Source: Nostoc commune NIES-4072 (lineage in GTDB: Bacteria; Cyanobacteriota; Cyanobacteriia; Cyanobacteriales; Nostocaceae). From it: 64,000 nucleotides of DNA. Below the pieces are notes generated by a model, which saw only the letters and a program-made list of their open reading frames with translations, was not told the DNA's origin and did not search any database. The stretch lies in assembly GCF_003113895.1 (NCBI RefSeq), contig NZ_BDUD01000002.1:186001-250000 (forward strand), read 5' to 3'. Shown here in pieces: positions 8,607 to 57,094 of the stretch. The translations under genes and the position numbers were made by a program. Numbering within the stretch: the first letter of the stretch is position 1; each line of letters begins with the position of its first letter.

Positions 8607-8667
8607 CCCGTCCTTACGCTCAAACGGCTACGCCGAAGCGAAAGTGATGTACATCTATATGTAATGT

Positions 8668-13121: not shown

Positions 13122-13132
13122 CTCTCAACCTC

Positions 13133-13166: not shown

Positions 13167-13292
13167 CTCTCACAAAAATTAATAAGCTAATCGGTATTGA
13201 AGCTGAAATCCAGGCATAACACTAAGGGAAGTGCAATCTACCATGCAAACGCTCCGCGAGAAATTAATGAAATTCTTGTGGAGAAAGCAATC

Positions 13293-15964: not shown

Positions 15965-16143
15965 AGGAGCAATTCTCACTTTGCAACAATTGTATTAGTC
16001 TTCATAGAATTATCATTTCTAAGATAATTTTCAAGTATTCTTTTAGAACAGATTCAGCAGAGTATCTATTATCAAAAAAGTCAATTAACCCAAATATATG
16101 GCTTGATGTTATCACTGATTCAAAATAAAGAATAAAAATAAAG

Positions 16144-18480: not shown

Positions 18481-20282
18481 ATGATTGGACGCAGTATAAA
18501 AACTAGCGAATCTTGGAAATCATTACCCTGGAAGAAATTCCGGAAGAACCTTTTCCGCTTACAAAAAAGAGTGTTTAAAGCTGTTCAAGTTGGAGACAAG
18601 CGCAAGGCTAAGTCTCTACAAAAGCTTATTCTGAAATCCTTTGCAGCTAGGTTTCTGGCTATACGTCAAGTAACACAGCTAAATGCTGGCAAAAAGACTG
18701 CGGGTATTGATGATAAAACCGCTCTAACATTTGAGGAAAGGTTCAACCTAGAACTGCTCCTCAGACAGCCTTGTTGGTATCACAACAAACTTAGACAGAT
18801 ACCAATTCCTAAGAAAGACGGCTCTATCAGATATCTCAAGGTTCCTACTATTGCAGATAGAGCTTGGCAGTGCCTAGCAAAATACGCTCTAGAGCCAGCA
18901 CACGAAGCAACATTTCATGCCAATAGCTATGGATTTAGAACTGGGCGCTCCGCCCATGATGCCCAAACGCAAATATTTGAAAATCTCAAAAGCACCGTTA
19001 ACGGAATCAACAAAAGAATCCTTGAGCTAGACATAGAAAAATGCTTCGATAGGATTAACCACTCAACCATAATCGACAACCTGATTGCCCCCAAAGGCTT
19101 AAAACTAGGTATATTCCGATGCCTCAAAGCCGGAATAACACCTGAGTTCCCAGAACAAGGTACATGTCAAGGTGGTGTGGTAAGCCCATTATTAGCCAAC
19201 ATCGCTCTAAATGGTATCGAAAAAGTACATAAGTACAAGAATCAAGACCCAAGACACTCCGACCCATGCGTAAGATACGCAGATGACATGGTGTTCTTCC
19301 TAAAACCAGAAGACGATGAAAAGCAAATACTTGACAAAATTTGCCAATTCCTAGCAGAAAGAGGATTAAAACCCACCTTCCGCACCCTAACTGTCACAAA
19401 GGTGTTTTCACTGTTTTTTAGAATAAAACAAAGCTAGTTTATATACTTAATCTCCTTGTTTTAACTGAGATTAAAAACTATGTCAGCATAATTTTTAGCT
19501 CAAAACCTGTCAAAAGTTAAGTGATTACCGATTGTGACACTCTGGGTGCGGAATGTGGGTTAAAAGTAAGCGAGAAAAAGACAAAGCTAACCGCTTCGAC
19601 AGATGGGTTTGACTTTCTCGGCTGGCATTTCGAGGTACAGCGAAACGGAAAATTCAGAAGTATTCCCTCAGAGGATAACTTCAAGGCTTTCCGCAAGAAG
19701 GTCAAGAAAATCGTCAATAGCTCGAACTATGGCGCTAGGGTAAAAGCTGCAAAGCTTGCCCCAATAGTCAGAGGATGGAGAAACTACCACAAATTCTGTA
19801 AAATGGACGCTTCCAGATTTTCACTATGGAACATGAGCCACAGAGCCTTCCAGGTATTCAACAGGGAAACAAAACTTGACCGCCACACTAGCCAAGTACT
19901 GCTAAACAAGGCGTTCCCATCGGTTCCCTACTCCGAGAACCGTCACATCAAAGTTAAAGGAAATAAATCACCTTATGACGGAGATACAGTTTACTGGAGC
20001 AAACGCAACAGTAAATTATATGACGGCATAACCTCAAAACTATTAAAGAAGCAAAGCCATACATGTGATTACTGTGGTATGAAGTTTACAAGTGAAGAAC
20101 GAGTACACTTACACCACATTGACGGTAATCATGATAACTGGAAAGGCTCTAATTTAATAGCAGTCCACGAAAGTTGTCACGACTACATCCACATGAGCAA
20201 AAAGGAAGTAGAGATTATTAATTCTTCTCAATCACAAAATCTCGTAACTAAGAGATTGGGAAGGGGAGATAAAGGAAACTAA
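18481..20282 (+). pseudogene. Group II intron reverse transcriptase/maturase, split by a MITE
   Basis: Two frames (18481-19437 and 19521-20282) become one 535-residue protein when 194 bp (19366-19559) are removed: LAERGLK then reads on into VSEKKTKLTASTDGFDFLGW. Visible domains are RT0-RT4 with the catalytic YADD at 266-269, the thumb/maturase X domain (PIVRGWRNYHKF) and a C-terminal HNH endonuclease (CDYCGMKF, then HLHHIDGNHDNW, then ESCHDYIH). Such an enzyme assists splicing and retrohoming of its intron. In its present form the insertion cuts the protein right after the RT core, so maturase and HNH parts are separated and mobility should be lost. Confidence 0.9.
19372..19559. mobile_element. 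188-bp MITE with 6-bp target duplication
   Basis: Terminal inverted repeats of about 27 bp (left end CCCACCTTCCGCACCCTAAC, right end the near-complement of it, GGGTGCGGAATGTGGG) flank A/T-rich DNA with no gene. TTAAAA is duplicated at 19366-19371 and 19560-19565. Removal of the element and one repeat restores the reverse transcriptase frame exactly. The ends differ from those of the other MITE family in this window. Confidence 0.93.
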
Positions 20283-20296
20283 CCTTAAGAATATCG

Positions 20297-20373
20297 GAAG
20301 CTGGATGCAGCGAAAGCGGCACGTCCAGATTTAACAGAGAGGTGCGAGGGGTAATATCCTCCATCGACTCTAC
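20297..20373 (+). ncRNA. Group II intron domains V and VI
   Basis: Domain V is seen at about 20297-20332: GCTGGATGC, then AGCGAAAGC with the GAAA tetraloop, then GGCACGTCCAG. Domain VI follows at about 20336-20373 (AGAGGTGCGAGGGGTAATAT, then CCTCCATCGACTCT), with an unpaired A suited to branching. This layout is diagnostic of a bacterial group II intron 3' end. Confidence 0.8.
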
Positions 20374-21107
20374 CAAAATAAAATCAACAACGCCCTCTTA
20401 ACTTTGTTCGGTGCATTAGCACATCTGCCACCCCGTAAGGCTTGGCATTTAAAATTAGTCGTCAGCTTACATGATGTTGGCTTGGCTGACAAATTGCAAA
20501 AAGTACTAAGTGGAGAATATCAGCCAATACTAGCTGGTAAACAATCAGACGTAAAAGTAGAAGTGCTAAAAGTTGTACTAGAAGGGATGGGTGCATTATT
20601 CGGGCATCCACTACCGAAAAAACTAACCATTTTAGACTTTGGCAATGGTACAACCCTGTATTCTCGTTACAACCGGGGTCAACGAGAAGTTCACACCGCC
20701 TACCCCATAGGTGTAGAAGTTCTCATCGATGATATTTCCCAAAAGATGAAATATTTAAATGGTGGAAAAATTGGGGATGCTTCCAAGATTCGGTTTTGTC
20801 TGGAGATGGGGCATACGAGGTATAGCCGTGACATCGATATCAAAGATATATACAGTGCGTGTTTGAAAGACTGGTATGAAAAATACTTGAAGAAAGTGGT
20901 GAATCTGACACTTGATGCCAAGCACCAGGGGGATGAAATCTGGGCGATAGGTGGAGGTTGCCTGTTACCAGGATTTAGGAAACTGTTAGAGAAGAACGGG
21001 TTTAAAATCCTGGAGAATCCAGTAGAAGCCAATGTCTTTGGGCTTTTAGAGATGGCAAAAACTATAAGTAGCAAAAATCCAACAAGTACATCTGGGAAAC
21101 TATAGCA

Positions 21108-23567: not shown

Positions 23568-25507
23568 GAACCTATCCCATTCACTGAAGGAATTTTATTC
23601 GTCACTTACTCAACTTTGAGATCGCAAAAAGGAGATAAAAGTCGGCTCAAACAAATGATTGAGTGGGCTGGCTCCAATTTCGAGGGAGCGATCGCCTTTG
23701 ATGAGTGTCATTCAATGGGCAACGCAATTGCGCAAGAGGGGAAGTTGGGAATGATCAAAGCATCCATGCAGGGCATTATCGGTTTACGGCTACAAAATGC
23801 ACTACCTCTTGCACGGGTTATCTACGTGTCAGCCACCGGAGCAACAAAAGTCTCAAACTTATCTTATGCAAATCGTCTAGGACTTTGGCAGACTGGTGAC
23901 TTTCCATTTACCTCCCGTGAAGATTTCGTGGAATCCATTGAAGTCGGGGGCATTTCGGTCACAAACAAGTTGCTGAAGTCACAGGACGGAGCAAAAGGGT
24001 ACTGAAAGACGAAGCTGGACGGTTGTTTGTGGATTCAAGAGGTAATGGTGCAAATATTGCTGAAACCACGGCATTTATGTCAGGTGAGAAACAAATCCTC
24101 ATCTTCAGTGATGCTGGTGGCACTGGTCGCAGTTATCACGCTGACTTAAATGCAGTCAATCGAAGACGGCGATCGCATTACTTACTAGAAGCTGGATGGA
24201 GAGCAGACAACGCAATTCAAGGTTTGGGACGCTCACACCGTACTAACCAAGCATCTGCACCAGTGTTCCGACCTGTAACGACCAATGTGCGGGGTGAACG
24301 TAGATTCATTTCTACCATTGCTAGACGGCTGGATAGTCTCGGCGCACTCACTCGTGGGCAACGGCAAACTGGTGGCAATGGCATATTTGATACCAAGGAC
24401 AATCTAGAGTCGAACTATGCTGAATATGCCTTGTATGAATTGTTTAAGCAGATTTTCCAGGGTCGGTTTGCTCAAGTTCCTTTAGGGACTTTTGAGCAAA
24501 TGACGGGATTATCCTTAACTTCCCATGAAGGCGGTATGAAAATCGACCTCCCACCACTGCGACAGTTTCTGAATCGGCTGCTGGCTTTGAGAATTGGGAT
24601 GCAGAATGTGATTTTCGAGAGGTTTGAATTGCTATTAAGTCAACAAATTGAAACAGCAAGAGCCGCAGGGGTGTTTGAGGTTGGTGTAGAAACTCTCCGG
24701 GCTGAAAGATTCTCTGTTGAGAGCATTGAGCCAGTTTATACACACTCTGGCACTGGTAGCGTCACCAATTACCTGAAGATAGAACGTACCCAGAAGAACA
24801 ACATTCAAACTGCTGCTGAAGCGGTTGAGTTTGCTACACATCACCAGGGACGGCTGATGACCAACTCTAAGTATGGTTATGGCGCAGTATCTATTCCCAC
24901 TCACAGTTTATTTGATGCCGACGGTGGAGTAATACCACGGGTTTTACTCGTTCGCCCACAGAAGCAAACTCGTATCCCCCTTGACAAACTGGACGATTCT
25001 ACTTGGAAACAGGTTTCGACTGATGAGTTTGTCGCCGTATGGTCGAAGGAAGTAGATCAGCTACCCAAGTTTACCACTGACCACATTCACTTGGTAACAG
25101 GAATACTTCTACCAATTTGGAAGGTACTGCCACAGCAGAACAGTCGAGTATTTCGATTGCAATTAAGTAGTGGAGACAAAGTACTGGGTCGTGTAGTGAA
25201 TGCGGAGAATATTCGTGCTGTTGCTGAACAATTGGGATTGAGGAATAAGCTTCTAAGTCCAGAAGAATTAGTTTCTTTGGTGCTTAACGAGCGTTACTCG
25301 GAACAGTTACCGGGAGGTGTAACTATGCGTTGTTCATTGGTTGCAAGTGAGAAGCGGATTGAGCTAGTGAATGCTTTATCGTTGGCTGACAGGCTTGTGG
25401 CTGTTGGTTGTTTCACAGAAATTATTCAATGGAAAAAGCGGGTATTCATTCCAACTAACGATAAAGCACCGTCAATTTTTGCTGCTGTGATTGAGATTCT
25501 TGGATGA
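23568..25507 (+). pseudogene. Deleted second copy of the Strawberry-notch-type helicase (copy B)
   Basis: Homology to copy A begins abruptly at PIPFTEGILFVTYSTLRSQK (copy A residue 564), so the methyltransferase domain and Walker A are gone. It keeps DECHSMGN, then at about 23951 jumps from copy A residue 691 to about 916 (GHKQVAEVTGRSKRVLKD), an internal loss of roughly 670 bp that shifts frame; the first frame stops at 24003-24005. From 24023 the remaining C-terminal part is open (494 codons) and intact to the end. Copy B preserves the uninterrupted FLNRLLALRIGMQNVIFERF stretch that is split in copy A. The 494-codon frame lacks any ATPase motif and probably has no function, unless it acts as a free C-terminal domain. 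Confidence 0.9.
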
Positions 25508-25670: not shown

Positions 25671-28600
25671 CTATCTTTGTAAGTCTATTTGTTGTGTTTG
25701 AGATTTAGCTAATATTTTATCAATTTGAGTATTAACATCCTCAAAAGTTTGCAATATCTGTGGAGTTAGTTTATTAGTCTGCACTCTCCCTGATTGCAAG
25801 TTTAAAATTACCTCCCCATTTTTCTGCGAAATAGTTAAATCTCTCTGCTGGGTATTGAAAGCCAAGTCATAAATTTTTCCAAGAAATTGAGTGCCATTTT
25901 CATTAGACTTACCCCAGATCATGCCAATCCTTTGAGCAATTTGAGTCAGCCGACTGATTCTTTCAAGCTCAAATGTATCTTGATTCATTACTGTCAACGC
26001 TTCGGCTGATAATTGCTCACCAGACTTTAACTGATTGGCCACTTCCACAATGCGCTTTTTGTAATTTTCCGACTTCCCTAACTTATCTGCGGTATTGTAC
26101 CAATTTCTCAAGTCATCAATAGTAACTGATTGAGGTTGGACTTCTTGGTTGGCTACGGCTCTGTTTTGTGCTTCAGGAAACGGGACTATAAAACCCTCCA
26201 CATAATCCCCCAAGGGTTCAAGATGTAGTCCCCAAACCTGCTGTTTTTCGGTGAACAGTTCTGCTAATGCCGTGGGTGAGTGCTTTTCCATGTCAGCCCA
26301 TTGCTGTTGATAAACGGGGTCAGCAATCATATCAGGTGTGATTTGATACTGCTTACCGACTCGAAAGGCGACTTGCTTATCAATACCTGTAGCTAGAGCA
26401 ATATCACCCTCTTTAAATCCATACTGTTTGTAAGGTTGATAAGCTCTAGTGGTATGAGTCCGACCATATCCTCTCATCGCATCAATACAAGTGTTTACTG
26501 GTATTGGATTAGTGTTACCATGCATCATTAAAGGGTAGTTCATCGGAATCGGTTTGCCTTTGATGACAGGAGGGGCGACATTTTGAACCTCTTGGTTTGG
26601 GTGGAATTGAGCGCTTTGTTGAGGCGGGGACAATGCTGATTGAGATGGAGGTTTCAAAAACTGTGGTCGTGTGGCAAAGGAGTTAACTCTTTGTTGATAG
26701 TCACTATCCGATTCAATAATTGCCCCAAATTTATTGGTCATGTTCTCCAAACTTTTGGGGGGAATTGAACTGCTGACTAAGTGAAATACTGCTAGACCTT
26801 TTTTAGTTTCCCTAATAACATCTTCCATTGGTACTTGCTCCCACTTAACTTTTTGAGCAGTTAACCATTTAGTCACAGTCTCAGCTTTCTGGTTGTCAAC
26901 AGCCAAGCCCATGACTCCAAGTTTTTTGTTTGATTCTGTAGAAAATAAGAAAGTAGGACGCTCTTTAATATGATGGAGAATTTTCGCACTACTCTCAATC
27001 ATCTTTTGTTGTTCAGAATTAACCGATTGAGTCCTAAAAGCCTGAAATTCCTTCGTCCACTTCTGGGGATATTCAACGGTATTAGGGTCAATTTGAGCGC
27101 AAATAACAGAGAAATTACTTTGAATAATAGCGGGGGCTGGGGTAAGTTTTCCGGTTTTGAGCAATCCAAGTTGTCTGAGCGCGTCTTTGTCTTTTTTGAA
27201 GTGCAATACTCCCAAGGGTTCACCATTCAAAAATACAGCATCTCTAGTTTTAGAAGCTGAGGTTTCGATAGTCAGTTTTCGGTAATCTTGATCATTGAAT
27301 GTCTGACCAGAAAAATCATAAAAGTTGATTTTGTTGATTTTGAGGAGATTTCCATTGGGAGACTCACCCAGGACAAAAGCTTGATCTCCTGTCTCAGAGA
27401 TTGACGTGAGCTTTAATTTTAGGGGATTACCATTTTTCAGGTAATCAACTTGTTTCAACTGTTGGGCAGAATCACTGTCTAACTCCCCTAATGTTTTACC
27501 ATCTAACTTAATTTTTACTGTTTTGTCAGTCACCGGCACAGTGCCAAATTCTAAGTTTACGGGTTCGGCGTTAAAAACAAGTCCTGCGTAAGAGAAGTTC
27601 TTGAGTTCACGGATAGTAATTTCAATCGGTTCGTTTCCTGGTAGCCCAATAGTTGCTGATGCTGTGGCAGGTTCTACCCCAATGAAATTAGCTTGAGCCT
27701 TTGTACCAATTGGTAACATTCCAGCCCTGGTTTCGAGCATGGCGAATTCTTTATATTCGCCGTCACTATCCTGGACAAACATTAGCCTGGAAACGTGGCG
27801 TTCATGCCCGACTGGGTGGTGGCTAGCCCTAATTTCTATCGGGTGCAAATCATCCTTGTTCCAGTCTCGACCTAAAAATTGATTCGCTTCATTATTCAGT
27901 GTGACTAACTTCGGTTCAGTAAATTGCAATTTATCTAAGCGAGAAATAATCTCATTGGGGAAAGCAGCGAAGGCGAAATTAGAGACTTTTTTAGCGTAGA
28001 CGCGGAGCGGCTTGTCGCTAGACATCGCCTGGGGGTTTGCGTTTTCTTTTCTTGCAACTTCAAGTTCATCTTGGCGGGATGCACAGATGTTCCAAGCGGC
28101 GGCGGATAGAGCAAGTTTTTCTGACTCTGGGATCTTCGAGGAGAATGCGAGAGCCGTCTCCTGTGCCTTGTCGAACAGTAATTTAGTTTGGCTTCTAGTA
28201 AGTTCTGGTTTTAGTTCTAAGAGTTTAGCTCCCTGCATGGTCATCCCCGATTTGAAGTTGTGGTCAGTCACAGATTGTTGGCTAACTGTCCCCAGGTTCC
28301 GGTAAGCGGGTTTTCCATCCGAACCTTTCTCACCATTGATTTGTGCAACTGCTAGTAATTTGTGGGGGCGTTCTTTAGTTCGCCATTTCTCTGGTATTTC
28401 GTCTAGGCGAATGTTCAACGTTTGGGCTTTCCAAATCAGAGGATGCCCGTAACGGGTGAGATTGGTAATTTCGAGTTTTGCTCCCTGTGGAGTTTGGGCA
28501 ATTGCGGATGGCCCTTTCTCAGTTTCACGCCGTTGGGACATCCGAACCGCAGCGTTGAATTTCAGATCGAACTCGTACTTCGCGGCGATCGCTGCAAATT

Positions 28601-30881
28601 TCTGCTGTGGTGTAAATTCTACTCCTTTGAACAAGTCTTTAAACTGAACGATGGGGCGCGATTCTAATTGTGATTGCTGGAAATATTTATTAGTTTGATT
28701 AATTAATAATTCTACAGGAGAGTAACCAGTGGGAGTAATGCCAGAGTTTAAATAAACTGAACGTGATTTCTTATCTTTAATATAGTTAACATCACGATAT
28801 AAGTAGCGGCTGTTTTCCCTGATTTTATCCATCTCAGGTTTTTTAGCACTTTTGAATAAATCAACCGCTATTTGGTTTTGATAACACCCTTCTTCAATCA
28901 TTTCTCGGTACATCAGGCGATTAACATCCATCGCCTGCTGAATAATATCTGGCGTTCTGTTAGGATTCTCTGCTAGGGCTACAACAGATTGCATGAAAGG
29001 TTTGTACTCTGCTCTAATTGGTTTGGGCTTCTCGCCATGTTCCTGTTCAAATAAACTTTGATAGTGCTTAGATACTTGGTCTAAATAAGTTGACTGTTGT
29101 TCTAAGTTACTGTAAGTTTTAAGTACCTCAATTTCCGATTCTAATGCCTCTAGTGCCGTCACTTGATTGTTGATTATGCCCACGCTGATGCTATCACTCA
29201 TGTGGATAGCGATTTTTTCAAATGGGGGCTGGCTTCCATCTTCTAAATAAAATGATTGTTTTTTGAGCTTAACTGTGGGCGAATAGGCGTTTTGGGGAAG
29301 ATTTCTCCGCTCTGCTTCTGCTGTTAAATTGGGATATAAGCTAGCTCTTACTACACCAATGCAGTCACCATCGTAGTCTCGTGCTTGGCGTTCTGATTCG
29401 GTTTCTGCTGGATCTATAAAATCAACATCAATCCCTCGTGCTTCTAACTCTGTAATTCTCGCTTGTATGCGCTTGTGGTCTTCGTCATTGACTACAATTA
29501 TGCCTTTGAGGTCTTTACCATCTGGGCCAAGTCGATCCTCAACATATTTATTGTCAGAAACACACAAACCATTAGAATTAAGAAAAGGAGAGCGGAAGTT
29601 AATAACTTTTTCTTGCTCATCAAGCCAAGGAACACAAATTTCACCATTCTTGAGTTCCTTGGATGGAATAATCATCCCTCGGTCAAAAGTAAGCGTTTTT
29701 CCCAGAGCGATATCTCGCCATTGGCTCTGTACAAACCGACTTAATTCCTGTTTAACTTTTTCCGTTTCTAATAACTGCTGATGACCCAATAAGTCAGCTT
29801 TGATGAGTTTGTACATGAACAAGTCATCTTTAGTACTCTCGTCATCTAATTCCTCATCTGCATCTAAGTCATCATTTGTCCTTAAGTTTTTAACATCGGC
29901 TTCAAGGCTAGTGACTTCTCCTATTTTTAATTTACCTTGGTTCAACGATTCTTTGCGTTTTTCGTATTTTTCACAATAGTCAGCAGCAAGTTTCCTTGGG
30001 TCATCTTGAATAGAGGCTAATTTTTCAGCTTGTAGCTCTAATTCTTCGGCAAAATCTTTAATTCCTTGAGGGAAAGATGCCAAAAGTTGAGAAATAGACA
30101 TCTGACCTTGCTGAGATTGTCCTTTTTCGGCTAACCAAATATTTTGCTGATGTAATCCTGGCTTAATTTGAGGTTTAGTCGCCCCTGTTGGTCTATCCTT
30201 ATCTGTTCCCTTAAAACTACTTACAGGGAGAATTATGTCTATTTTTGGTTTGTTATTTTGATCTACATATTTGATTTCGTCTAGCCTGTATGGTCGGAGT
30301 GTTCCTTTGCCAAAACGATATTTAGTAGTATCCTCTCCATTTCCTTCTACCCAACCGAATCGGTGCTGGATAACACGGTAGCTTTTATCTTGCTGTGATT
30401 CTCTTGAAGTGAGCTTATCATAAAGTTGGGTTGAAATCTGCCCATAACAGTCACCAACTAATTTATATGCTAAATCATTTGATAATATTCCTCCATTTTC
30501 ACCCCTGTTGTCAGTAGAATCATCTACTACTAGAATATTTAGCCGTTCCGAAATTGCATTTTTACAAGCTCCGAGAAATATTGAACCATAAGCACCTCTG
30601 TCTTTACTATCTGGACAAATTTTTTGAATAGTTTCTAAACATTCTTTTTCTCCATAAAGTAAGCGGGTCTTAGAAGATAGTAATAAAATATGTCCATCTG
30701 GATGATTTCTTAAATCCTCGTCTGTACTGTATTCATCTGAATGTCCAAATGAAAACTTTTTATCAGGAAAGTAAGATTCAAGTAAAGTATTACTGAGCTT
30801 TTCGGTTAAAATAGTTCTACGGTCATCTGTATAAATCCATTGGTTAAGCCTGGGGTCAAAATGTTTTAATTCCAGTGTCAT
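25671..30881 (-). CDS. Giant protein with RNA-polymerase-like DYDGD motif
   Basis: The protein has 1736 residues. The N-terminal 220 residues are unrecognised. Residues about 330-395 are charged and partly acidic. From about 395 to 520 the text is FDRGMIIPSKELKNGEICVP, FRSPFLNSNG, GIIVVND and then ARDYDGDCIGVV, with D502-Y-D-G-D506. In multisubunit RNA polymerases and their single-chain relatives (YonO-like phage enzymes, QDE-1-type RdRPs) a DxDGD loop in a double-psi beta barrel holds the catalytic magnesium. The next residues (NLTAEAERRNLPQNAYSP) resemble the EAEARxLM...NILSP segment that follows this loop in beta'. Residues about 1480-1600 form another domain (NTCIDAMRGYGRTHTTRAYQ, PUA/ASCH-like by appearance). 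I infer a nucleic-acid polymerase-like enzyme; a dead or structural relative is possible. It is divergent from the gene at 30928. Confidence 0.55.
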   Translation of the reverse strand: MTLELKHFDPRLNQWIYTDDRRTILTEKLSNTLLESYFPDKKFSFGHSDEYSTDEDLRNHPDGHILLLSSKTRLLYGEKECLETIQKICPDSKDRGAYGSIFLGACKNAISERLNILVVDDSTDNRGENGGILSNDLAYKLVGDCYGQISTQLYDKLTSRESQQDKSYRVIQHRFGWVEGNGEDTTKYRFGKGTLRPYRLDEIKYVDQNNKPKIDIILPVSSFKGTDKDRPTGATKPQIKPGLHQQNIWLAEKGQSQQGQMSISQLLASFPQGIKDFAEELELQAEKLASIQDDPRKLAADYCEKYEKRKESLNQGKLKIGEVTSLEADVKNLRTNDDLDADEELDDESTKDDLFMYKLIKADLLGHQQLLETEKVKQELSRFVQSQWRDIALGKTLTFDRGMIIPSKELKNGEICVPWLDEQEKVINFRSPFLNSNGLCVSDNKYVEDRLGPDGKDLKGIIVVNDEDHKRIQARITELEARGIDVDFIDPAETESERQARDYDGDCIGVVRASLYPNLTAEAERRNLPQNAYSPTVKLKKQSFYLEDGSQPPFEKIAIHMSDSISVGIINNQVTALEALESEIEVLKTYSNLEQQSTYLDQVSKHYQSLFEQEHGEKPKPIRAEYKPFMQSVVALAENPNRTPDIIQQAMDVNRLMYREMIEEGCYQNQIAVDLFKSAKKPEMDKIRENSRYLYRDVNYIKDKKSRSVYLNSGITPTGYSPVELLINQTNKYFQQSQLESRPIVQFKDLFKGVEFTPQQKFAAIAAKYEFDLKFNAAVRMSQRRETEKGPSAIAQTPQGAKLEITNLTRYGHPLIWKAQTLNIRLDEIPEKWRTKERPHKLLAVAQINGEKGSDGKPAYRNLGTVSQQSVTDHNFKSGMTMQGAKLLELKPELTRSQTKLLFDKAQETALAFSSKIPESEKLALSAAAWNICASRQDELEVARKENANPQAMSSDKPLRVYAKKVSNFAFAAFPNEIISRLDKLQFTEPKLVTLNNEANQFLGRDWNKDDLHPIEIRASHHPVGHERHVSRLMFVQDSDGEYKEFAMLETRAGMLPIGTKAQANFIGVEPATASATIGLPGNEPIEITIRELKNFSYAGLVFNAEPVNLEFGTVPVTDKTVKIKLDGKTLGELDSDSAQQLKQVDYLKNGNPLKLKLTSISETGDQAFVLGESPNGNLLKINKINFYDFSGQTFNDQDYRKLTIETSASKTRDAVFLNGEPLGVLHFKKDKDALRQLGLLKTGKLTPAPAIIQSNFSVICAQIDPNTVEYPQKWTKEFQAFRTQSVNSEQQKMIESSAKILHHIKERPTFLFSTESNKKLGVMGLAVDNQKAETVTKWLTAQKVKWEQVPMEDVIRETKKGLAVFHLVSSSIPPKSLENMTNKFGAIIESDSDYQQRVNSFATRPQFLKPPSQSALSPPQQSAQFHPNQEVQNVAPPVIKGKPIPMNYPLMMHGNTNPIPVNTCIDAMRGYGRTHTTRAYQPYKQYGFKEGDIALATGIDKQVAFRVGKQYQITPDMIADPVYQQQWADMEKHSPTALAELFTEKQQVWGLHLEPLGDYVEGFIVPFPEAQNRAVANQEVQPQSVTIDDLRNWYNTADKLGKSENYKKRIVEVANQLKSGEQLSAEALTVMNQDTFELERISRLTQIAQRIGMIWGKSNENGTQFLGKIYDLAFNTQQRDLTISQKNGEVILNLQSGRVQTNKLTPQILQTFEDVNTQIDKILAKSQTQQIDLQR

Positions 30882-30927: not shown

Positions 30928-31458
30928 ATGTCAAGAATTAAGCGTTGGATAAATATGCATAAAAAAGAATTCAATGCAGATGGAAGCTTGAAAAATGAAG
31001 CTCGGCAAGAAATGTTATCTGTGGGAATGAGTAACGAGGCAATTGATGATTATGCCTCTAGACTAAAAGCAAGATACGACGAGTGGAAGCACCTAGACGA
31101 GACTGACCCAGAGCCGTGGCCAATCTACACAGCCTACGATTTCTTCACTGAACAAGAGAAAAGGGAATTTAGCCCTGATGGTTCTCTCAAACCTGAATAT
31201 TTAGAATACGCTCAAAAAATGGGCTTTAGTGAAGGTGCGCTGGAACAGCTTGAGTGGCGTAAGAAAATGGAAGTTGATCATTACAACAAAGTGTCTGCTA
31301 AACACGCAGAACAAGGTATTAACTTTGGTGAAGAACGGATGAAAGAAAGGATTGAAGACAGCAAAACTTACGTCCAACGTCGGCAGCAGATGGAGCAAGA
31401 CTTGCGTAACTTTGAGGATGTTGACAGTCTGCCTTTCGACAAGGACACAGCATATTAG
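30928..31458 (+). CDS. Hypothetical protein with an internal duplication
   Basis: The 176-residue protein has a good ribosome site (GGGAGG, 30918-30923). Two copies of a motif of about 30 residues are visible: KKEFNADGSLKNEARQEMLS...GMSNEAI and KREFSPDGSLKPEYLEYAQK...GFSEGAL. The second half is charged and helical. No family is recognised. It is divergent from the polymerase-like gene across 46 bp, so the two may share regulation. Confidence 0.6.
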   Translation: MSRIKRWINMHKKEFNADGSLKNEARQEMLSVGMSNEAIDDYASRLKARYDEWKHLDETDPEPWPIYTAYDFFTEQEKREFSPDGSLKPEYLEYAQKMGFSEGALEQLEWRKKMEVDHYNKVSAKHAEQGINFGEERMKERIEDSKTYVQRRQQMEQDLRNFEDVDSLPFDKDTAY

Positions 31459-41343: not shown

Positions 41344-44166
41344 ATGACAACAAAGCAGACAGATAAAATCAAGAAGCAAAGATTAGAAGCGGAGCAAATT
41401 AATGTAGTAAAAACTCTCACACCCTTTGAAGACATTATCCATTTAGCTGGGGTTTGCGATGTTGCTTTGGGAGGGAGAAAAGGGATAGGAGCATTAATTC
41501 TCAAAAATGGGGAATCGATTCAAATCAAATTCTGTTTTGATTGTATTGGAATTCATTCTAACTTAGCCTCAGAGCAAATCCTCCCAATCTTTGAGAGCAT
41601 AGAGGCAGGTTTAAAAGAGATCCCATCAGCAGAGTCATTAACCATACATTTGGGTTCCTTTACAGACGATTATTCGAGGCAATCAGAATTAGAGTCTATC
41701 GAAAGCAATTGTGATATTGAGCAATTGAAATTACTAATTAGGAGTGAGAGGTTACGAATCAAAGAATTAACCAAATCTGGAGTCAGGAAGAACAAGTTTT
41801 TAAGATTATGGTGTACTTATACAGCGTTAGCTGATTCAGAGATTAGCCAAGACATTGTAGAATCGACAATCCGAAAGTTAGAGAAAGTTTGGTTTAAATT
41901 CACCGGAGAAATTCACGCTTTTAACAATAGTAGGATTGAAAATATTCTCAAAAATTCATTTAGTGATGGTTTTTTGCAGTGGGAATCGTTGCTGAGTAAC
42001 AAGATGAAACTAGGGATTAGAGTTTTGAGTGCTGAAGATATTTGGAAAGTCTTATGGCATCAATTTAATCTCACATCACCGACACCAATTCCTAATCCCT
42101 TAGTGATTAGTCAAACTCAAGGATTAGTAGAAACTCAAACTAGTGATTTTCACATTCGGCATCATCTGTTGGAGAATGAAGAATCTGTTCCATTCTTAGA
42201 TCGGCAATGGGTAAAGATTCAAGATAAATATATTGGAGTGATGAACTTTAGCCAAAAGCCAGGGGGCTGGATAGATGAACGCTCTCAATTACGATATCTT
42301 TGGGAATTAATTTCCAAAGAAAGTATCTCAGATACAGAAATTATCTGTCAAATCACTAAAGCTAATCAGGCAATTACCAAAACTAATTTACAACGCCTTA
42401 CTAAACAGTCAATTACATCGACAGCCTTATCAACAAGTAAAGGAAACATCGATGTCAAAGCCGGAATAAATATTGAAGAATCTGTAGAGGCACAACGAAC
42501 CATTTACAAAGGAAGCGTTGTTGTTTATACCGGAGTAGCTTTTCTTGTCCATAGAAAATCGACAAGAGAACTCAATGAGGCTTGCAAATACTTAGCTTCC
42601 TACTTTTTAAGACCAGCAGCAGTAGATCGAGAAAAAGAATACGCCTGGAAGACATGGTTGCAATGTTGTCCATTTGTTTGGGAGCCACTGCTGGCAAAAC
42701 CTTTTAACCGCAGATTACCTTATTTCAGTTCCGAAGCACCAGGGCTGATGCCTTTGATTCGTACAGCTACAGGAGATCGGACTGGCTTTGAGTTGATTGC
42801 CGAAGAGGGGGGTACGCCAGTACACCTGGATTTGTACGAACAGCATAAAAATATAGCAGTTTTTGGTGCAACTCGTTCCGGGAAATCAGTACTGGTGGCA
42901 GGAATTTTAACACCTGCATTAGCCCAAGATATACCAGTAGTAGCATTAGATTACCCCAAACCAGACGGGACATCGACATTTAGTGACTATACGAATTTGC
43001 TAGGTAAGGATGGTGCATACTTCGATATTTCCAAAGAGTCGAATAATTTGTTTGAACTACCTAATTTGAGGGGGATGGATCAAGAAACCATTAATGAAAG
43101 ATTGAATGATTTTAAGGAATTCTTGAAATCAGTGTTAATGACAATGGTGATTGGAACTAGCGTCATTGGCGTTAGCCCTTCCATGATTACTAATATTGAA
43201 TCTATCATTGCCCTAGCCTTGAAAACGTTTTTTAATGATGATGAAATCAAAGTCCGGTATAAGTTGGCATTAGCCGCAGGAGTTGGCACTAAAGCTTGGC
43301 TGGACACTCCCACATTACAAGATTTTTTGAATTATTGTTCGCCAGCATTTCTCAAAATAGATTCTATAGCCAGCAATAGCCAGGAAATCTTATCAGCCTT
43401 GGAGCAAATCAGATTGAGATTAAAGTACTGGCTCTCCACAAGAGTTGGAGAATCTATTAGTCGTCCCTCAACTTTCCGAACTGATGCTAAGTTGCTAGTA
43501 TTTGCACTGCGGAATTTATCGAGTGAGGCAGATGCAGCGATTTTAGCTTTATCAGCTTATGCCGCAGCCCTTCGACGTGCTTTGTCTTCTAAAGCCAGTA
43601 TCTTCTTCCTGGATGAAGCGCCGATTCTATTCCAATTCGAGGCGATCGCCGAGTTAATTGGGCGGTTGTGTGCCAATGGCGCAAAAGCAGGGATACGAGT
43701 AATTCTCTCGGCTCAAGAACCAGAGAGTATTTACCAAAGCAAAGCCGCAGCAAAAATCTTCGCCAATATTACAACCCGATTGATCGGGAGAATCCAATCA
43801 TCGGCAGTAGATCCCTTTGTTGATAGATTTAAATATCCTTACGAAATCATTCAAACCAATAGTACAGAGCCTTTCTATCCAACAAAATCCGGCATTTACT
43901 CACAGTGGTTATTGGATGATTCAGGCAAACTTACATTCTGTCGTTATTATCCAGCATACTGTTTATTGTCCGCAGTCGCTAACAATCCTTCGGAACAAGA
44001 ATTACGAACTCTATTCTTGAAAAAATATCAAGATAATCCAATACTAGGACAAGTCATGTTTTCTGAAGATTATATCAGAATGGTTCGGGGAGAGCCGTTA
44101 TCTTCAACAGCCCAACAATTGCTTAAGAGTTTAACTTCTAAAACCTTAGTCGTCACATCAATTTAG
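41344..44166 (+). CDS. virB4: VirB4/TraC-type conjugation ATPase
   Basis: The protein has 940 residues, near the usual length of the family. The C-terminal ATPase domain has Walker A GATRSGKS (508-515) in HKNIAVFGATRSGKSVLVAG and Walker B FFLDEAP (Asp757, Glu758). The N-terminal half is the poorly conserved VirB4 domain. VirB4 energises pilus assembly and substrate transfer at the inner membrane. It is the best-defined marker of the secretion cluster. The downstream genes follow in the same direction with small gaps or overlaps. Confidence 0.88.
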   Translation: MTTKQTDKIKKQRLEAEQINVVKTLTPFEDIIHLAGVCDVALGGRKGIGALILKNGESIQIKFCFDCIGIHSNLASEQILPIFESIEAGLKEIPSAESLTIHLGSFTDDYSRQSELESIESNCDIEQLKLLIRSERLRIKELTKSGVRKNKFLRLWCTYTALADSEISQDIVESTIRKLEKVWFKFTGEIHAFNNSRIENILKNSFSDGFLQWESLLSNKMKLGIRVLSAEDIWKVLWHQFNLTSPTPIPNPLVISQTQGLVETQTSDFHIRHHLLENEESVPFLDRQWVKIQDKYIGVMNFSQKPGGWIDERSQLRYLWELISKESISDTEIICQITKANQAITKTNLQRLTKQSITSTALSTSKGNIDVKAGINIEESVEAQRTIYKGSVVVYTGVAFLVHRKSTRELNEACKYLASYFLRPAAVDREKEYAWKTWLQCCPFVWEPLLAKPFNRRLPYFSSEAPGLMPLIRTATGDRTGFELIAEEGGTPVHLDLYEQHKNIAVFGATRSGKSVLVAGILTPALAQDIPVVALDYPKPDGTSTFSDYTNLLGKDGAYFDISKESNNLFELPNLRGMDQETINERLNDFKEFLKSVLMTMVIGTSVIGVSPSMITNIESIIALALKTFFNDDEIKVRYKLALAAGVGTKAWLDTPTLQDFLNYCSPAFLKIDSIASNSQEILSALEQIRLRLKYWLSTRVGESISRPSTFRTDAKLLVFALRNLSSEADAAILALSAYAAALRRALSSKASIFFLDEAPILFQFEAIAELIGRLCANGAKAGIRVILSAQEPESIYQSKAAAKIFANITTRLIGRIQSSAVDPFVDRFKYPYEIIQTNSTEPFYPTKSGIYSQWLLDDSGKLTFCRYYPAYCLLSAVANNPSEQELRTLFLKKYQDNPILGQVMFSEDYIRMVRGEPLSSTAQQLLKSLTSKTLVVTSI

Positions 44167-45855: not shown

Positions 45856-47421
45856 ATGTCACTAAAAAACGAACACCAGAATTTGACTATAGATCAAATC
45901 TTGAGATTTTCAGAGGATACAAATGATGGACAAAGGAGAGAAAAGCCGGAGCCGGAAGACTCTGAAGAATTTCCATCGATTACCAAGCACACTGTCAGTA
46001 CTTCTCCTTGGTCAAGATTGGGGATAATCGCTATTCCTTTTGGCTTCGGGTTTTTAGTAATCTTTTATTTTCTCAATGGCATTTTCAATCCTGGTAGAAG
46101 TCCAGAAGCGATAACTGCTAAAGCTGATAAAACATCCCCAGCTTTGGAGAAAGTCGAGCAGCAAGATGGTGATGTCTATGCCAAATTAGCCTTGAATAAA
46201 CAAGAAGATGAATTAAATAAGATTAATCAGAGTCAGGAGGAAGTTAAAATTAATAATAAACCTGTAAGTGTTGCAGCTTCGCCATCAACACCAACAGCTA
46301 GACCTGTAGCACAAACACAAAGTCCTAATCCTAGACGAGATTACGTTCCGAGTAGAACTAACTCGACTATTTCATCATCACCTCGTAATCAAATATTGCC
46401 AAGAATTAGTAATCCTGTTAGGACTGTTACGCCGATAACAGAAACGCCAACAGACGTGATAGCTGAATTTAATCGACTTCGCAGCTTAGGATCTTACGGA
46501 AAAATCGCTTATACACCTACTTCAAATAACCAGCAGATATCAGCAGAGGCAACATCCTTTCAAACGCCGAATACAACACGAATTCAAGTACAGCCACCCA
46601 ATAGTGGTTATACGACACAGCAAACACGCCCTAACTTTTTCAACAGTACACCCACAGAAATTGAGAAAATTCGCCCTCGTTGGTCAGCCAATTCTAAATC
46701 TGATAAACAAATAGCAGATGGTAATTACTTGCCTCAAGAAAACCAAATTCTGCAACAGCGTAAAACTCGCTATTTAGTTGTTGGGGAATTCGCAAATGGT
46801 ATTTTAGTGACTTCAGTCATCAAGCAGCAAAGCGAAAATCGCTTCCAACAACAGCAAAATCCAGATGATAGTAAACGCTATGTTGCTAGATTAACGGCTG
46901 ATTTGCATGACAACTATGGAAATGTGGCAATTCATAAAGGCACAATATTTACCGTTGAACCCCTACAGGTTAATGGTGGCTCTTATGTAAGTGTGCAAGT
47001 CACGAGCATTATCAAAGATAACACTGAGTACCCAATTAGTAGCGGTGCAATTTCTGTATTAGGAGAAGGCGGCAAACCCTTGTTAGCTAAACAGTTCCAA
47101 GATCACAAAGGCGGAGGTTCTGACTTGACTGTGGCATTAGTCAGTGGTTTGGGTCAAGTAGGAGCAATCCTGAATCAATCTGATTCGGGTACCAGTGTAG
47201 TTAATTCTGCTACTGGGACATTTAGCTCTAGCACGACTTCAAACAGCCAGCGCAATATTGGCGGGGCATTCTTGCAAGGTGCTTTTGGCAAGCTTAGTGA
47301 CACCATTACTCGTCGTGCAGAAACTTCTAACCAACAAATCACCCCTCGGACCAATGTTTGGTATATCCCACAAGGAACGAAGATTACCTTTTTGGTGAAC
47401 CGTTCTCTGGAGTTGCCATGA
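45856..47421 (+). CDS. virB10: VirB10/TrbI-like core-complex protein
   Basis: The protein has 521 residues: an N-terminal cytoplasmic part, a transmembrane helix at about 60-78, a long Pro/Ser/Thr/Asn-rich periplasmic linker (to about 300), and a C-terminal beta-rich domain containing ARLTADLHDNYGNVAIHKGT, VQVTSIIKDNTEYPI and a hydrophobic antenna-like segment, ending PQGTKITFLVNRSLELP. This is the domain order of VirB10/TrbI, which spans both membranes. The stop overlaps the next start by 4 bp (ATGA). Confidence 0.8.
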   Translation: MSLKNEHQNLTIDQILRFSEDTNDGQRREKPEPEDSEEFPSITKHTVSTSPWSRLGIIAIPFGFGFLVIFYFLNGIFNPGRSPEAITAKADKTSPALEKVEQQDGDVYAKLALNKQEDELNKINQSQEEVKINNKPVSVAASPSTPTARPVAQTQSPNPRRDYVPSRTNSTISSSPRNQILPRISNPVRTVTPITETPTDVIAEFNRLRSLGSYGKIAYTPTSNNQQISAEATSFQTPNTTRIQVQPPNSGYTTQQTRPNFFNSTPTEIEKIRPRWSANSKSDKQIADGNYLPQENQILQQRKTRYLVVGEFANGILVTSVIKQQSENRFQQQQNPDDSKRYVARLTADLHDNYGNVAIHKGTIFTVEPLQVNGGSYVSVQVTSIIKDNTEYPISSGAISVLGEGGKPLLAKQFQDHKGGGSDLTVALVSGLGQVGAILNQSDSGTSVVNSATGTFSSSTTSNSQRNIGGAFLQGAFGKLSDTITRRAETSNQQITPRTNVWYIPQGTKITFLVNRSLELP

Positions 47422-49507: not shown

Positions 49508-49696
49508 AGAACAATTCGCAATTCGCAATTCGCAATTCGCAATTGCGGACGTAATTAAATAATTGAGCCGTTAGGATACAGAGCAAATTTAATTTATTAA
49601 TGGAAGATTAAAAAATGCATAGCATCAATTTTCAAGCCCCTGCCTTCAGAGATAGGGTACTAATTGCGAATTGCGAATTGCGAATTGGTAATTGCT
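49508..49696. repeat. AATTCGC short tandem repeats
   Basis: Five head-to-tail AATTCGC units stand at about 49512-49546 and the complementary GCGAATT three to four times at about 49665-49687. The second group lies inside the start of the VirD4-like gene, the first between genes, so they could pair as a long hairpin around the start codon. Heptameric repeats like this are a hallmark of heterocystous cyanobacteria. Confidence 0.85.
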
Positions 49697-51447
49697 CTGA
49701 CAGCATTGGCAAGTATACCAATGCTTTGTTTACACCAAATGGACTGACAGTTTTAAGTTTAGTTGGTGCTTACATTTTAATGAGAGTCTTTTTGGGCGAT
49801 GGCAGTAGTAAAAAGAAGATTGCTACTAGCTATTGGGGAGGCAGAAAGGAGAGCAGTACAGCTAAGAAAAAAGCATTGCAACAAATAGCCTATCCCCGAT
49901 GTGATAGTGTCGCTTTGTATATTGGCAGACATCAATTCAAAGGTGCAAAAAAGCAAATTGGTAGTGGAGGAGTACCGATTTATGTACCATCCGTACAAAG
50001 GGGAACTGCTGCCATTGGCGCACCCGGAAGTGGGAAAACTTTCAGTGCCATTAATCCCATGTTGTTCTCCGCAATTGACCAAGGCTTTCCTATTTTACTA
50101 TATGACTTTAAGTATCCATCTCAGGCGAAAATTGCTGCTTATGCTAAAGCTCTTGGCTACGATGTCCATATTTTTGCCCCTGGATTTCCCGAATCAGAAG
50201 TTTGTAACCCTCTGGATTTTTTAAGAGATTCTTCTGACGCTGAAAATGCTCGGCAAATTGCGACGGTCATCAATAAAAACTTCCGCATTCTGAATAATTC
50301 TAATGAAGATGGATTTTTTGGCCCGTCCGGGGATCAGTTAACCCAAGCTGTATTGATGTTAACCAAAGAATTTGGAGATAGAGCTGATGTGATGACCAGT
50401 GCTGCCATCTTGTCTAGTGAGCAGATGATTGCGCGGTTAATGTCTGCTAATCTCAACCCTTGGGTAAAGATTGCCTTTGGTCAGTTGTTCAGTTCCGCCG
50501 CGAGTGAGAAAACCGTCGCCGGGATTGTTGCCACAGCTAGTATCATGTTTACCCGCTTCATGGCCAAGAACACACTGGGTTGCTTTATTGGTAAAACGAC
50601 TTTACCACTCTCAATTAAAGGTAAACAAATGATTATCTTTGGTTTAGACAGAGAGCGGCGGGATGCTGTTGCACCGTTGATGACTAGCGTTCTCCACATG
50701 ACCATCGCCCGAAATATAGCCAAAAAACGCTTAGATCCGTTAATAGTTGCATTGGATGAATTACCTTCCTTGTATCTGCCCGATTTATTCAGATGGTTAA
50801 ATGAATCACGAAGTGAGGGTTTCTGCGGCATCCTCGGCTGGCAAAATATGGGGCAGTTGGAAAAGAATTATGGTCGGGAAGTTGCTAAGACTATCCTTGG
50901 TGCTTGCAGTACGAAATTTATTTTTAATCCTGGAGAGAATGAATCAGCACAATTGTTTTCTTCGTTTCTGGGAGATGAAGAAATTAGGTACAAGCATAAA
51001 TCAAGATCCACGGGTGGTGGAAAGAGCAATAATACCATTAGCGACCAAGAGAAAACCAAAAAGCTATTTGAATCGGCAGAGTTTTTAAAACTACCAGCCG
51101 GGAAGTGTGTTTTTATAAATCCTGCATACTCCAATAAGAAAGAGGGGTCAGTTCCTCAGTTAAAAAACATCAACATTCCTCAAATTCTCCGCGACATCGA
51201 CAGATACAACGAAAAAAGATGGAAACCAGTTGTCAGTAAATTAGCTCGGAAAAGTACACAGAGATATCCGACTCAGTACGACTTAGATTTGAGAGTGAAC
51301 GATGTCAATAATCGTTTCCCTCCACCTGCTACACAAGACAACAATCCTAATAATAAAGTTTTGAGCGTTGGAGAAATTAAATCAATCCTGGACGAAAATG
51401 CTCAGAACCAAATTCCAGAGGTACTAAATAATGAGAATAATGATTAA
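49615..51447 (+). CDS. virD4: VirD4/TraG-type coupling protein
   Basis: The 610-residue protein couples the relaxosome to the secretion channel. Walker A is GAPGSGKT at 135-142, Walker B is LIVALDELPSLY near residue 380, and ILGWQNMGQLEKNYG fits the conserved Gln motif. Only one transmembrane helix is clear (about 43-60, TVLSLVGAYILMRVFLG); the family usually has two. The first 35 residues include an insertion encoded by GCGAATT repeats (IANCELRIGNC), so the N-terminus may have been altered by repeat growth, and a later start is possible. The stop overlaps the next gene. Confidence 0.85.
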   Translation: MHSINFQAPAFRDRVLIANCELRIGNCSDSIGKYTNALFTPNGLTVLSLVGAYILMRVFLGDGSSKKKIATSYWGGRKESSTAKKKALQQIAYPRCDSVALYIGRHQFKGAKKQIGSGGVPIYVPSVQRGTAAIGAPGSGKTFSAINPMLFSAIDQGFPILLYDFKYPSQAKIAAYAKALGYDVHIFAPGFPESEVCNPLDFLRDSSDAENARQIATVINKNFRILNNSNEDGFFGPSGDQLTQAVLMLTKEFGDRADVMTSAAILSSEQMIARLMSANLNPWVKIAFGQLFSSAASEKTVAGIVATASIMFTRFMAKNTLGCFIGKTTLPLSIKGKQMIIFGLDRERRDAVAPLMTSVLHMTIARNIAKKRLDPLIVALDELPSLYLPDLFRWLNESRSEGFCGILGWQNMGQLEKNYGREVAKTILGACSTKFIFNPGENESAQLFSSFLGDEEIRYKHKSRSTGGGKSNNTISDQEKTKKLFESAEFLKLPAGKCVFINPAYSNKKEGSVPQLKNINIPQILRDIDRYNEKRWKPVVSKLARKSTQRYPTQYDLDLRVNDVNNRFPPPATQDNNPNNKVLSVGEIKSILDENAQNQIPEVLNNENND

Positions 51448-54194: not shown

Positions 54195-55160
54195 TAATGT
54201 ATAGTGACCAGATTGAGCGTAAAAATGCTGGTCGTTTAACTGATAAAACTCTCCAAGTTTACGCATATCTTGATTCTACTGATGGCTGGTGGTGTAATGG
54301 TGGTGTTGACCCCCGCACTTTCTGTGATTTACTACCTGGGGATCAGCCGAAAGTAAAACTTTGGGGCTGTTACAAACCTGATTCTCCTAGACCTGATGCC
54401 CAAAAACCTGGGAAATTTATCAAATATGAACATCCCTACAAAGATGAACTTAGTATCTTCTTACTAGAAGTACCAAAAGCCATTGCTGAATTTATCTACT
54501 CCAAAGCTGGCGTTAATCCTAGCCTAAGCGATCGCCAATCAGGTTTTTGGTATTCTGTGTGGAAACACAATATACCAGTAACCATTGTTGAAGGCGCTAA
54601 GAAAGCTGCGAGTATTTTGACTCAAGGAGATGCTGCCATCGGCTTGCCAGGGGTTAATGCTGCATATCGCTCCAAAGATGACCAAGGTAATCCAATCGAG
54701 AGCAAATTACGCTCAGAAATTGCCATGTTTGCGACTCCAGACAGAGAAATCAGAATCTGCTTTGACCATGATTCCAAAAGTAAAACTCAAGTCAACGTCG
54801 GCAAAGCTTTGATTAAAACTAGTCAACTTTTGGTCAATCATGGCGCTGTTGTCAAAATAATCACTTTACCCGGGCCAGAAAAAGGTGTTGACGATCTCAT
54901 TGCAGCGCTTGGGGCAGCCGTTTATGAAAAGCTCAAAGCCTTAGCGGTTTCTTTTGAAGATTGGCAGCGAAATAACCCTTTGCCTGACCTGCGACAATTT
55001 ATTTTTCTCAAAAATGGACAAGAGTTAAAGCTTAAGAGTGTGGGAAGAAGTGAGATTCTCCTCACACCTGCTACAACTCCCACACCTCCCACAACTCCCA
55101 CAACTTCCACACCTCCCACACTCCCTGAATCTCTTACAACAAGTGATGAATCCAGATGCC

Positions 55161-55549
55161 CCGAAGCCTCTCTGACTCCCCTGCGTCCTCTATCTCCCTT
55201 ACCTCCTCTATCTCCCCTACCTCCTTTATCCCGTACTCACCCTCTGTATGCTGCTATCAAATCTATACAAATACAACAGGCATTATTAACCCAACAAACA
55301 GAGTCAAAAATTGCACCTCTTCCAAAAACTAATTCCCAAACAAATGATCGAGTAATTATTCCCAAAGCCTCTCTGACTCCCCTGCGTCCTCTATCTCCTT
55401 TATCCCATACTCGCCCTCTGTATGCTGCTATTATCAAATCCATACGAATACAACAGGCATTATTAACCCAACAAATAAAGGAAAAAATTGCGCCTCTTTC
55501 ACAAACTAATTCCCAAACAAATGCTCGAGTAATTATTCCCGAAGCCCCT
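55161..55549 (+). repeat. Two tandem repeats of about 190-200 bp inside the DUF3854 gene
   Basis: The unit encodes ASLTPLRPLSPL, RPLYAAIKSIQIQQALLTQQ, KIAPLPKTNSQTNDRVIIP twice, with the second copy from about 55363 slightly diverged. A shorter CTATCTCCCTTACCTCC repeat lies inside unit one. At 55625-55660 GATGAATTA codons repeat (DELDELDELDELD). Confidence 0.9.
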
Positions 55550-57094
55550 CAATCTCAAGTTAGTCCGCCTTCAGAACAGAGCAGCACTCATAACTCACAA
55601 AACACGGAATCAATATCAGTCGATGAATTAGACGAATTAGATGAATTAGATGAATTAGACCTATTGAAACGCCGTCGTCGCCAATCCGAAATTATTTCTG
55701 ACACCATAGAGGATAACAAAACTTTTGTTGAAAAACCCTCTAGTGTCAACAAGGATTTGTTGTCATCTAACAGCATACCTACTGGTAACAGTTGGGTCAA
55801 TATCAAACAGGTAACAGTTTATAAACAAACAATCCCTCGAAGGTTTTTAGAAGCTAAACAAAATCAAGACATTGCCTTTGCTGCTAGAGAGCTTGTGAAG
55901 ACTTATGGTGTTGAACAAGATGATGGCTCTACAGTTTACCGTGCCGATACTTTCCTAATTAAAAAGAATCAATCTACTTATAGTATTCATCGTCGTCAGG
56001 CGACAAACTTAGATAATCCAATTATGGAGTTTGAAGCCTCACAATATCATATTAATATTACTCAAAGACCTCAAGATAAATTTTTACCCATAGAGCGGCA
56101 AGAGTTTTTAATGGTTGCAGATACCTTGAAACAAGGTAAAGAGCTACCTGACCTTGATGAAGACCCCAGGAAAATTGCTAACACCCTAAGTTCTCTTTCT
56201 CCTGATGGCACTCATAAAATTCTTGAAAGTTTTAAATCTTTAGAAATCTTCAAAATACTTACAAATACCCTAGAAACCTTTAATTCTCACGATTTAGAAT
56301 TAGGTAATTATCGGATTACTTATACTTCTAATAATGAAAATAGTGGTGATATCAAGCTTTTAAAAACTGAACATAACGGCACTACTAGAGTTGCTGTACA
56401 TTTAGAATTGAGCCGAACTGATGAACAAATGAATCATCAAGTTCATTCTATGGCTATTACCTCCTTAGAAATTGACAAACTCAGGCTGCTGGCAACTAAA
56501 CTTCAAATCCCAACAATTAATTCTGCTGCTAATGCCCACGCAACTCGTGATATTCCTTTACCACTTCATCCAGCATTAGCTGAAATTTGGAACTTACTGG
56601 AGAGTTCTGTCAGATGGACATCTGGAGCAAACCAAGGTAATGAAGGTTTTCGTGAGCGATTTCAAAAAGACCCCAATGCTAAACTAACTTTGGGTGAGCA
56701 GTCACAACTTTATCAAGGCGATGACTTTAGCAAAAAGTCCCTGATTCCTGCCGTTGTTCAAACTATCATTGCTAAAGGTCAAGATACTAAAAATGAAGGC
56801 CGCGTTTATGAAGGCGTTCTTTATAGACTTCAATTACTTATTAAAGAAGGTATACAGTTTATCAATATTAACCGCAAAACCCAATCCAATCAAAAAGCTT
56901 TTGCTGCATATAAAGACCACACTAACGAGTTTACAATTACTTCAAATAACCTCTCAACCGAAGAAGCACAAAAAATCGTTGCTTTTAATCAGCAGCGAAT
57001 TGCAAAAGAACAATCTCAACCATCATCTATTAAAACCGATAAAACTCAGGAATTCTCATTTGATAAAGATGATAATTCCGAACTAGGAGGCTAG

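Follow-up and report, generated by a model that had tools for sequence, protein, structure and literature searches.

A 64,000-nucleotide stretch of Nostoc commune NIES-4072 (G000:C2:186001-250000, hereafter the window) contains on its minus strand an open reading frame (ORF; 25671-30881, 1736 amino acids, ATG start) whose product, as supported by several lines of evidence, belongs to the single-chain branch of the two-double-psi-barrel polymerase superfamily. For this protein we infer catalysis and a DNA template: most likely it is a single-chain two-barrel polymerase that would make RNA from the plasmid's own DNA, a reading to which we assign a probability of about 0.6. Homology, invariant active-site residues, predicted fold, plasmid location and gene linkage are established. 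The genome measures 8.2 Mb in 11 contigs, and the contig that holds the window is 806,781 bp long. A first-pass annotation made from the DNA letters had given the same ORF, strand, coordinates and length, all of which were borne out. The gene and its parts are as follows.

25671..30881, minus strand: gene of the two-barrel single-chain polymerase, recognized by its ORF, its homologues, an RDR2/QDE-1 fold match and purifying selection (dN/dS 0.147 at dS 0.36, reference Nostoc sp. ATCC 53789 plasmid copy)
30117..30560, minus strand: putative first (beta-like) double-psi barrel region, residues ~108-255, from model strands and Q172, R174, K192 and K224; inferred borders
29346..29690, minus strand: putative second (beta'-like) double-psi barrel region, residues ~398-512, from model strands and hhalign coverage; inferred borders
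29364..29378, minus strand: catalytic loop DYDGD, residues 502-506
28851..28874, minus strand: QIAVDLFK, with Q670, V673, D674 and K677 at the end of a predicted helix (644-676), identical in 106/106 aligned sequences
25674..27914, minus strand: C-terminal extension, residues ~990-1736, of no known family
26139..26609, minus strand: optional module, residues ~1425-1581 (IDAMRGYGRTHTTR...), with a DAMRG string

The DYDGD loop is present where it had been reported, beginning at residue 502 in the context ERQARDYDGDCIGVV...TAEAERRNLPQNAYSP. A D-x-D-G-D string occurs once in the protein against about 0.023 expected from its own composition, so the motif by itself is weak evidence. As a conserved feature, DxDGD is far beyond chance. 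In an alignment of 106 sequences (A2), whose relatives share 19-93% identity with the window part, every row has the same three aspartates and the same glycine, as the proposed test of conservation among homologues demanded, with residue 503 being F in 94 rows and Y in 12, and a D.DGD string was found in 240/240 proteins among the matches listed by two protein searches. Also unvarying in A2 are Q172, R174, K192, G193, K224 and G225 in the N-terminal part, R430, P432 and K541 alongside D502, D504, G505 and D506 in the middle part, and the four residues of QIAVDLFK after the second barrel, a stretch that presumably resembles the IAVDxxKTG text of eukaryotic RNA-dependent RNA polymerases (RdRPs). 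The superfamily's metal-binding DxDxD triad in one barrel (D502, D504, D506) and its two basic residues from the other (K192, K224) were thus found in 106/106 sequences. According to the cited passages of PMC1750930, the first double-psi barrel of QDE-1 has invariant Q736, K743 and K767, and magnesium is bound by aspartates; the window residues follow the same order, and by order and context K192 and K224 may match K743 and K767 one-to-one.

Of the 21 relatives whose sequences were taken from whole genomes, 17 carry DxDGD and two (L045, L055) have DFDKD or DFDRD with the triad intact; these 19 retain Q172, K192, K224, the triad, D674 and K677. The other two, L047 (in G197) and L048 (in G115), each ~925 residues long, have lost K192, K224, the triad and D674 all at once, a joint loss which indicates that the active-site residues go as one set. 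Each shares a contig with an intact member (L046 and L049, respectively), and from their sequences L047 and L048 are probably inactive paralogues kept next to an active one.

Searches with the window protein itself returned no family over cut-off in a Pfam scan and no significant match in PHROG or PDB sequence searches, and a PDB search with the A2 profile gave unrelated low-score matches alone among the best 60 of 79. A PLU-1 Pfam match (0.00085, 19 bits vs 28.5) was set aside as below cut-off. The relatives of the window protein carry the link to PF05183, the family of the eukaryotic RdRPs RDR2 and QDE-1. A protein search found 362 homologues, of which the best 120, where named, are mostly Nostoc "hypothetical protein" and two Ribonuclease HI; a profile search found 173 proteins, and among the best 120 many have precomputed PF05183 matches and one is named RNA dependent RNA polymerase. 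The "ribonuclease H" or "Ribonuclease HI" label of some relatives was without Pfam support in the two scanned (L108, P0023). The window protein matches an L040-type relative at 3.5e-16 in one genome (G142:C20), and such a relative matches PF05183 at 3.7e-07 with 29.7 bits (cut-off 23.8). PF05183 was matched at E<=10 by 4/7 relatives scanned, one of them over cut-off, and P0121 and P0132 reached 24.8 and 25.4 bits. Across genomes of the class it occurs at E<=0.001 in 15/388 (11 over cut-off) and in 0/14 control genomes, with no match in the window protein or anywhere in its own genome; most of the matched stretches fall on the second barrel (profile ~380-539).

Profile-profile comparison (hhalign) of the wider family with seven YonO-type phage proteins, YonO itself not being among the phage proteins used, gave probabilities of 95.3% (E 2.3e-08) and 95.5% (E 1.4e-08) over the second barrel region. 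PF05183 also matches 5/6 YonO-type phage proteins, every one below cut-off, so the family name says nothing on the template. Five of six cyanobacterial relatives scanned match phrog_34895, of unknown function, and one or two of the same six match phrog_4291, an RNA-dependent RNA polymerase (E 1.9e-05, 1.8e-04). The YonO-type enzymes (SPbeta YonO; phrog_4291-type, e.g. of Lactococcus phage 1706) resemble the window family in being single chains with this 95% second-barrel profile match; they differ in being phage-borne, about half the length of the window protein and, in the six examples examined, equipped with helix-turn-helix (HTH) matches near both ends. Phage P23-45 gp64 and P74-26 gp62 are phage proteins of ~590 residues and gp96 is a tail-protein fusion, whereas the window protein lies on a plasmid. 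In multi-subunit RNA polymerase the barrels sit on separate subunits; here both putative barrels are on one ORF, and beta'/RPB1 scored much lower.

In the predicted structure the strands of the second barrel region span 398-407, 425-429, 439-444, 461-465 and 507-512. FRSPFLNSNG (429-438) sits between the second and third of these, GIIVVND (460-466) lies on 461-465, in agreement with the strand claimed for it, and 507-512 follows the loop. A structure search with this model returned RDR2 as the best fold match and QDE-1 as a further match, with two fold programs and 11-14% identity in the structural alignments; none of the rows extends past residue 993. The overall two-double-psi-barrel fold was found in the predicted structure, which did not go against the double-psi barrel proposed around 395-520; its topology is presumed from the RDR2 and QDE-1 match rather than traced on coordinates. 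The window protein differs from those two eukaryotic enzymes in being plasmid-borne and bacterial and in having ~740 extra residues past the matched part. Taken with the Pfam matches of relatives, the profile-profile comparison and the active-site residues, the fold search supports the superfamily membership, in a single-chain branch with QDE-1, RDR and YonO-type proteins, that had been suggested from the motif.

Relatives of residues 1-1000 occur at E<=0.001 in 50/291 class genomes. Among matching genomes with at most 11 contigs (10 of 11 sized), nine places are on contigs measuring between 51,529 and 806,781 bp, and one genome (G252) has two polymerase copies on a single 6.77 Mb contig. A tblastn search of PLSDB with the window protein matched 77/72,556 records in 86 places; the best 60 of the 77 rows are all cyanobacterial, and by mobility the 77 records comprise 35 conjugative, 15 mobilizable and 27 non-mobilizable plasmids. 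Nostoc sp. C052 has five polymerase plasmids and ATCC 53789 three, with one place on each. Some PLSDB copies are split into several pieces or unannotated. P0121, of another subfamily, matched 59 PLSDB records, partly the same as those of the window protein. That many large plasmids of cyanobacteria have relatives suggests that they come with a polymerase of their own. Among phage records there were short 33-35% matches alone, and the L038 paralogue had no match in a search of named phages. Six IMG/VR contigs (L089-L094) contain relatives, of which L089 matches PF05183 at 9.5e-10; in L090-L094 the motif is the variant DTDGD and an ORF of 1861-1967 residues comes next, the one in L090 without a Pfam match.

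The polymerase gene is linked to replication and transfer genes. Family A DNA polymerase and AEP primase-DnaB genes (identities Pfam-tested on one example of each) are near it in 11 loci on 9 distinct contigs, and in all 10 loci positioned (8 distinct contigs) they are upstream of it in the same orientation, with 0.5-6.1 kb between it and the DNA polymerase gene. A type IV secretion system (T4SS) ATPase-like family is present in 21 loci, the window included, and lies 4.4-8.3 kb downstream on the same strand in all 14 loci with a position listed; the window differs, its transfer genes being beyond the polymerase start and running away from it. Counted as overlaps between the rows listed, 46 of the 60 plasmids listed for the T4SS ATPase-like gene also appear under the polymerase (36 of the top 40). 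At L107 (Leptolyngbya sp. BL0902 plasmid, 6775-13315), the polymerase is immediately preceded on its own strand by ThiF/E1-like and JAB (Mov34) genes, and other loci have related sets ~2.6-7 kb upstream.

Three points speak for a DNA-dependent role: the bacterial single-chain relatives of known function are phage transcriptases, as the cited parts of PMC5467207 (YonO) and PMC10770324 (gp64) describe; each plasmid within one cell holds a copy of its own; and the polymerase gene is retained on plasmids that have a linked primase. Among the roles suggested, the gene context would favour transcription. In the mechanism we propose, the first barrel would provide Q172, K192 and K224 and the second the three aspartates for the catalytic magnesium, with the helices behind the second barrel perhaps serving as a bridge-like part. 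Just as YonO and phage P23-45 gp64 serve their phages, the enzyme would make RNA from plasmid DNA, and the putative targets, replication or transfer genes, could be transcribed without the host polymerase, perhaps just after plasmid entry into a new cell. The long C-terminal half, with its exchangeable modules, may read a plasmid-specific template or partner.

Several observations weigh against this reading. In 34 upstream regions of the window, no common motif stood out against shuffled sequence. A single chain with a YonO-homologous profile was found for the wider family, but the window clade's own profile matched YonO-type profiles weakly (13.5%), so the YonO-type link leans on intermediate relatives. 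HTH matches lie near both ends in 6/6 YonO-type phage proteins examined, over a cut-off in five, whereas the window protein has none (Pfam, E 10); terminal HTH domains are a trait of these phage examples and not a published criterion. The best solved folds include RNA-templated RDR2 and also QDE-1, whose structures, by their entry titles, were solved with DNA and with RNA templates. One place covers at least 80% of the protein in just 45/77 PLSDB records; between the rows listed, 14/60 T4SS ATPase plasmids are missing from the polymerase side and 33/79 polymerase plasmids from the ATPase side. A second copy on the same contig outside the window (G000:C2:51000-55933, 87-89% identical) is broken, with three matched pieces, one internal TAG and the optional module unmatched.

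The enzyme might instead make RNA primers for plasmid replication or post-conjugation second-strand synthesis rather than messenger RNA. Its position downstream of DNA polymerase and primase-helicase genes in the 10 positioned loci and its co-occurrence with conjugation genes would suit this role, which we nevertheless judge unlikely: the window protein is far larger than a usual primase, an AEP-type primase is already in those loci, and the relative YonO is processive, as stated in the cited part of PMC5467207. Alternatively, it could be an RdRP whose product, double-stranded RNA, serves defence or a silencing-like pathway, perhaps together with a prokaryotic Argonaute. The PF05183 matches of relatives and RDR2 as the best fold match speak for this, as does a Piwi-domain gene (prokaryotic Argonaute; L117, G000:C2:756836-757693) on the same contig; polymerase and Piwi genes occur together in 15/291 class genomes against 7.4 expected (p 0.0018, a crude value), a further point against the DNA-dependent reading. 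This co-occurrence is uncorrected for lineage or genome size, the two genes share a contig in just 1/15 genomes, where they are ~540 kb apart (many assemblies are fragmented), and the sub-cut-off PF05183 matches extend to YonO-type phage proteins (5/6); we judge this RdRP reading unlikely. An Argonaute-polymerase operon was tested for linkage and found unsupported. A retained polymerase fold acting as a non-catalytic plasmid factor, in scaffolding or segregation, draws on L047 and L048 (2/21 relatives), whose lost triad and lysines demonstrate that loss does happen, but neither the window protein nor any of the 105 other aligned sequences lacks an active-site residue, which makes it very unlikely here. 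That DYDGD is a chance resemblance in a protein that is not a polymerase would fit the searches with the window protein alone, in which no family reached the Pfam cut-off and neither PHROG nor PDB sequences matched significantly, and is hardly credible given the family profiles, the direct relative over the Pfam cut-off and the two fold programs.

Single-chain two-barrel polymerases are a known kind, mobile-element relatives included; the cited part of a jumbo-phage comparative study places YonO and such relatives in the same superfamily (PMC7824862). The Kluyveromyces lactis linear plasmid, a virus-like element, likewise has a non-canonical polymerase outside the chromosome (PMC6211774, in the part cited), although it is cytoplasmic and of yeast, and is likened to the cyanobacterial plasmids by description. 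In the literature searched, which leaves most subscription papers outside and so does not show absence from print, no paper on the plasmid polymerase family was found, nor any account of its distribution over plasmids, of the copy-per-plasmid pattern, of its linkage with replication and transfer genes or of the giant C-terminal forms. Plasmids are generally held to borrow the host RNA polymerase. Tentatively, and with some reserve, we propose that large cyanobacterial conjugative plasmids could carry a private single-chain RNA polymerase, usually one diverged copy each, for host-independent transcription, for example after transfer, and that few bacterial proteins may be closer to the eukaryotic RNA-silencing polymerases than these. 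If true, this would give conjugation- and replication-linked plasmids a new layer of autonomy, offer a possible tool for orthogonal transcription in filamentous cyanobacteria and provide the eukaryotic RNA-silencing polymerases with a reservoir of relatives in bacteria. It also gives a name to a large class of "hypothetical proteins" of ~800-2600 residues.

In the C-terminal half, a separate model of residues 780-1736 was unreadable (pLDDT 54.9, pTM 0.27). The ~150-residue DAMRG module is present in 23/24 listed homologues of at least 1700 residues vs 2/73 of 1570-1699 residues, and the copies of Chroococcidiopsis (2179 residues) and Aulosira (2581 residues) have extra insertions on either side of it. 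A resemblance of the long insert in the latter (L109, Aulosira laxa plasmid, 4001-11746) to a 2OG-Fe(II) oxygenase was rejected, being without Pfam support.

The polymerase gene is flanked by a conjugative-type plasmid set (ParA, ParB, a MobV-type relaxase, an AAA ATPase, TrbI, TrwB/TraG and DUF3854), and these partition, relaxase and transfer genes fit the conjugative cyanobacterial plasmid setting put forward in the first-pass annotation.

14292-15979: ParA and ParB, flanking genes in the window
30928..31458, plus strand: divergent ORF of 176 residues, 46 bp from the polymerase start, with relatives in L052, L104 and L105
35942..37660, plus strand: MobV-type relaxase (Mob_Pre)
41344..44166, plus strand: type IV secretion ATPase-like protein, with weak sub-cut-off FtsK/TrwB/TraG matches
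45856..47421, plus strand: TrbI-like conjugation protein
49615..51447, plus strand: TrwB/TraG coupling protein
54197..57094, plus strand: DUF3854 protein, a putative plasmid primase

The 176-residue ORF, for which a Pfam scan gave no family over cut-off, is annotated as the polymerase's divergent neighbour in plasmid records including Nostoc sp. ATCC 53789 pNsp_a, and is a possible partner of the polymerase. The ATPase-like gene is named type IV secretion system DNA-binding domain protein in 3/60 listed plasmids. Among the matches listed, pNsp_a has the most similar plasmid copy; it is typed as conjugative, MOBV and MPF_T, and its local order (polymerase, divergent small ORF, ParM/StbA, MobV, ATP-binding protein) is close to that of the window. 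Elsewhere in the window, a group II intron at 18481-20373 (reverse transcriptase ORF 18481-19437, Rfam RF00029 at 20296-20373) is followed by a ParM/StbA-related ORF (20404-21105), and there are two Strawberry-notch-type helicase regions, at 8668-13121 and 24023-25507, the latter with the C-terminal domain alone.
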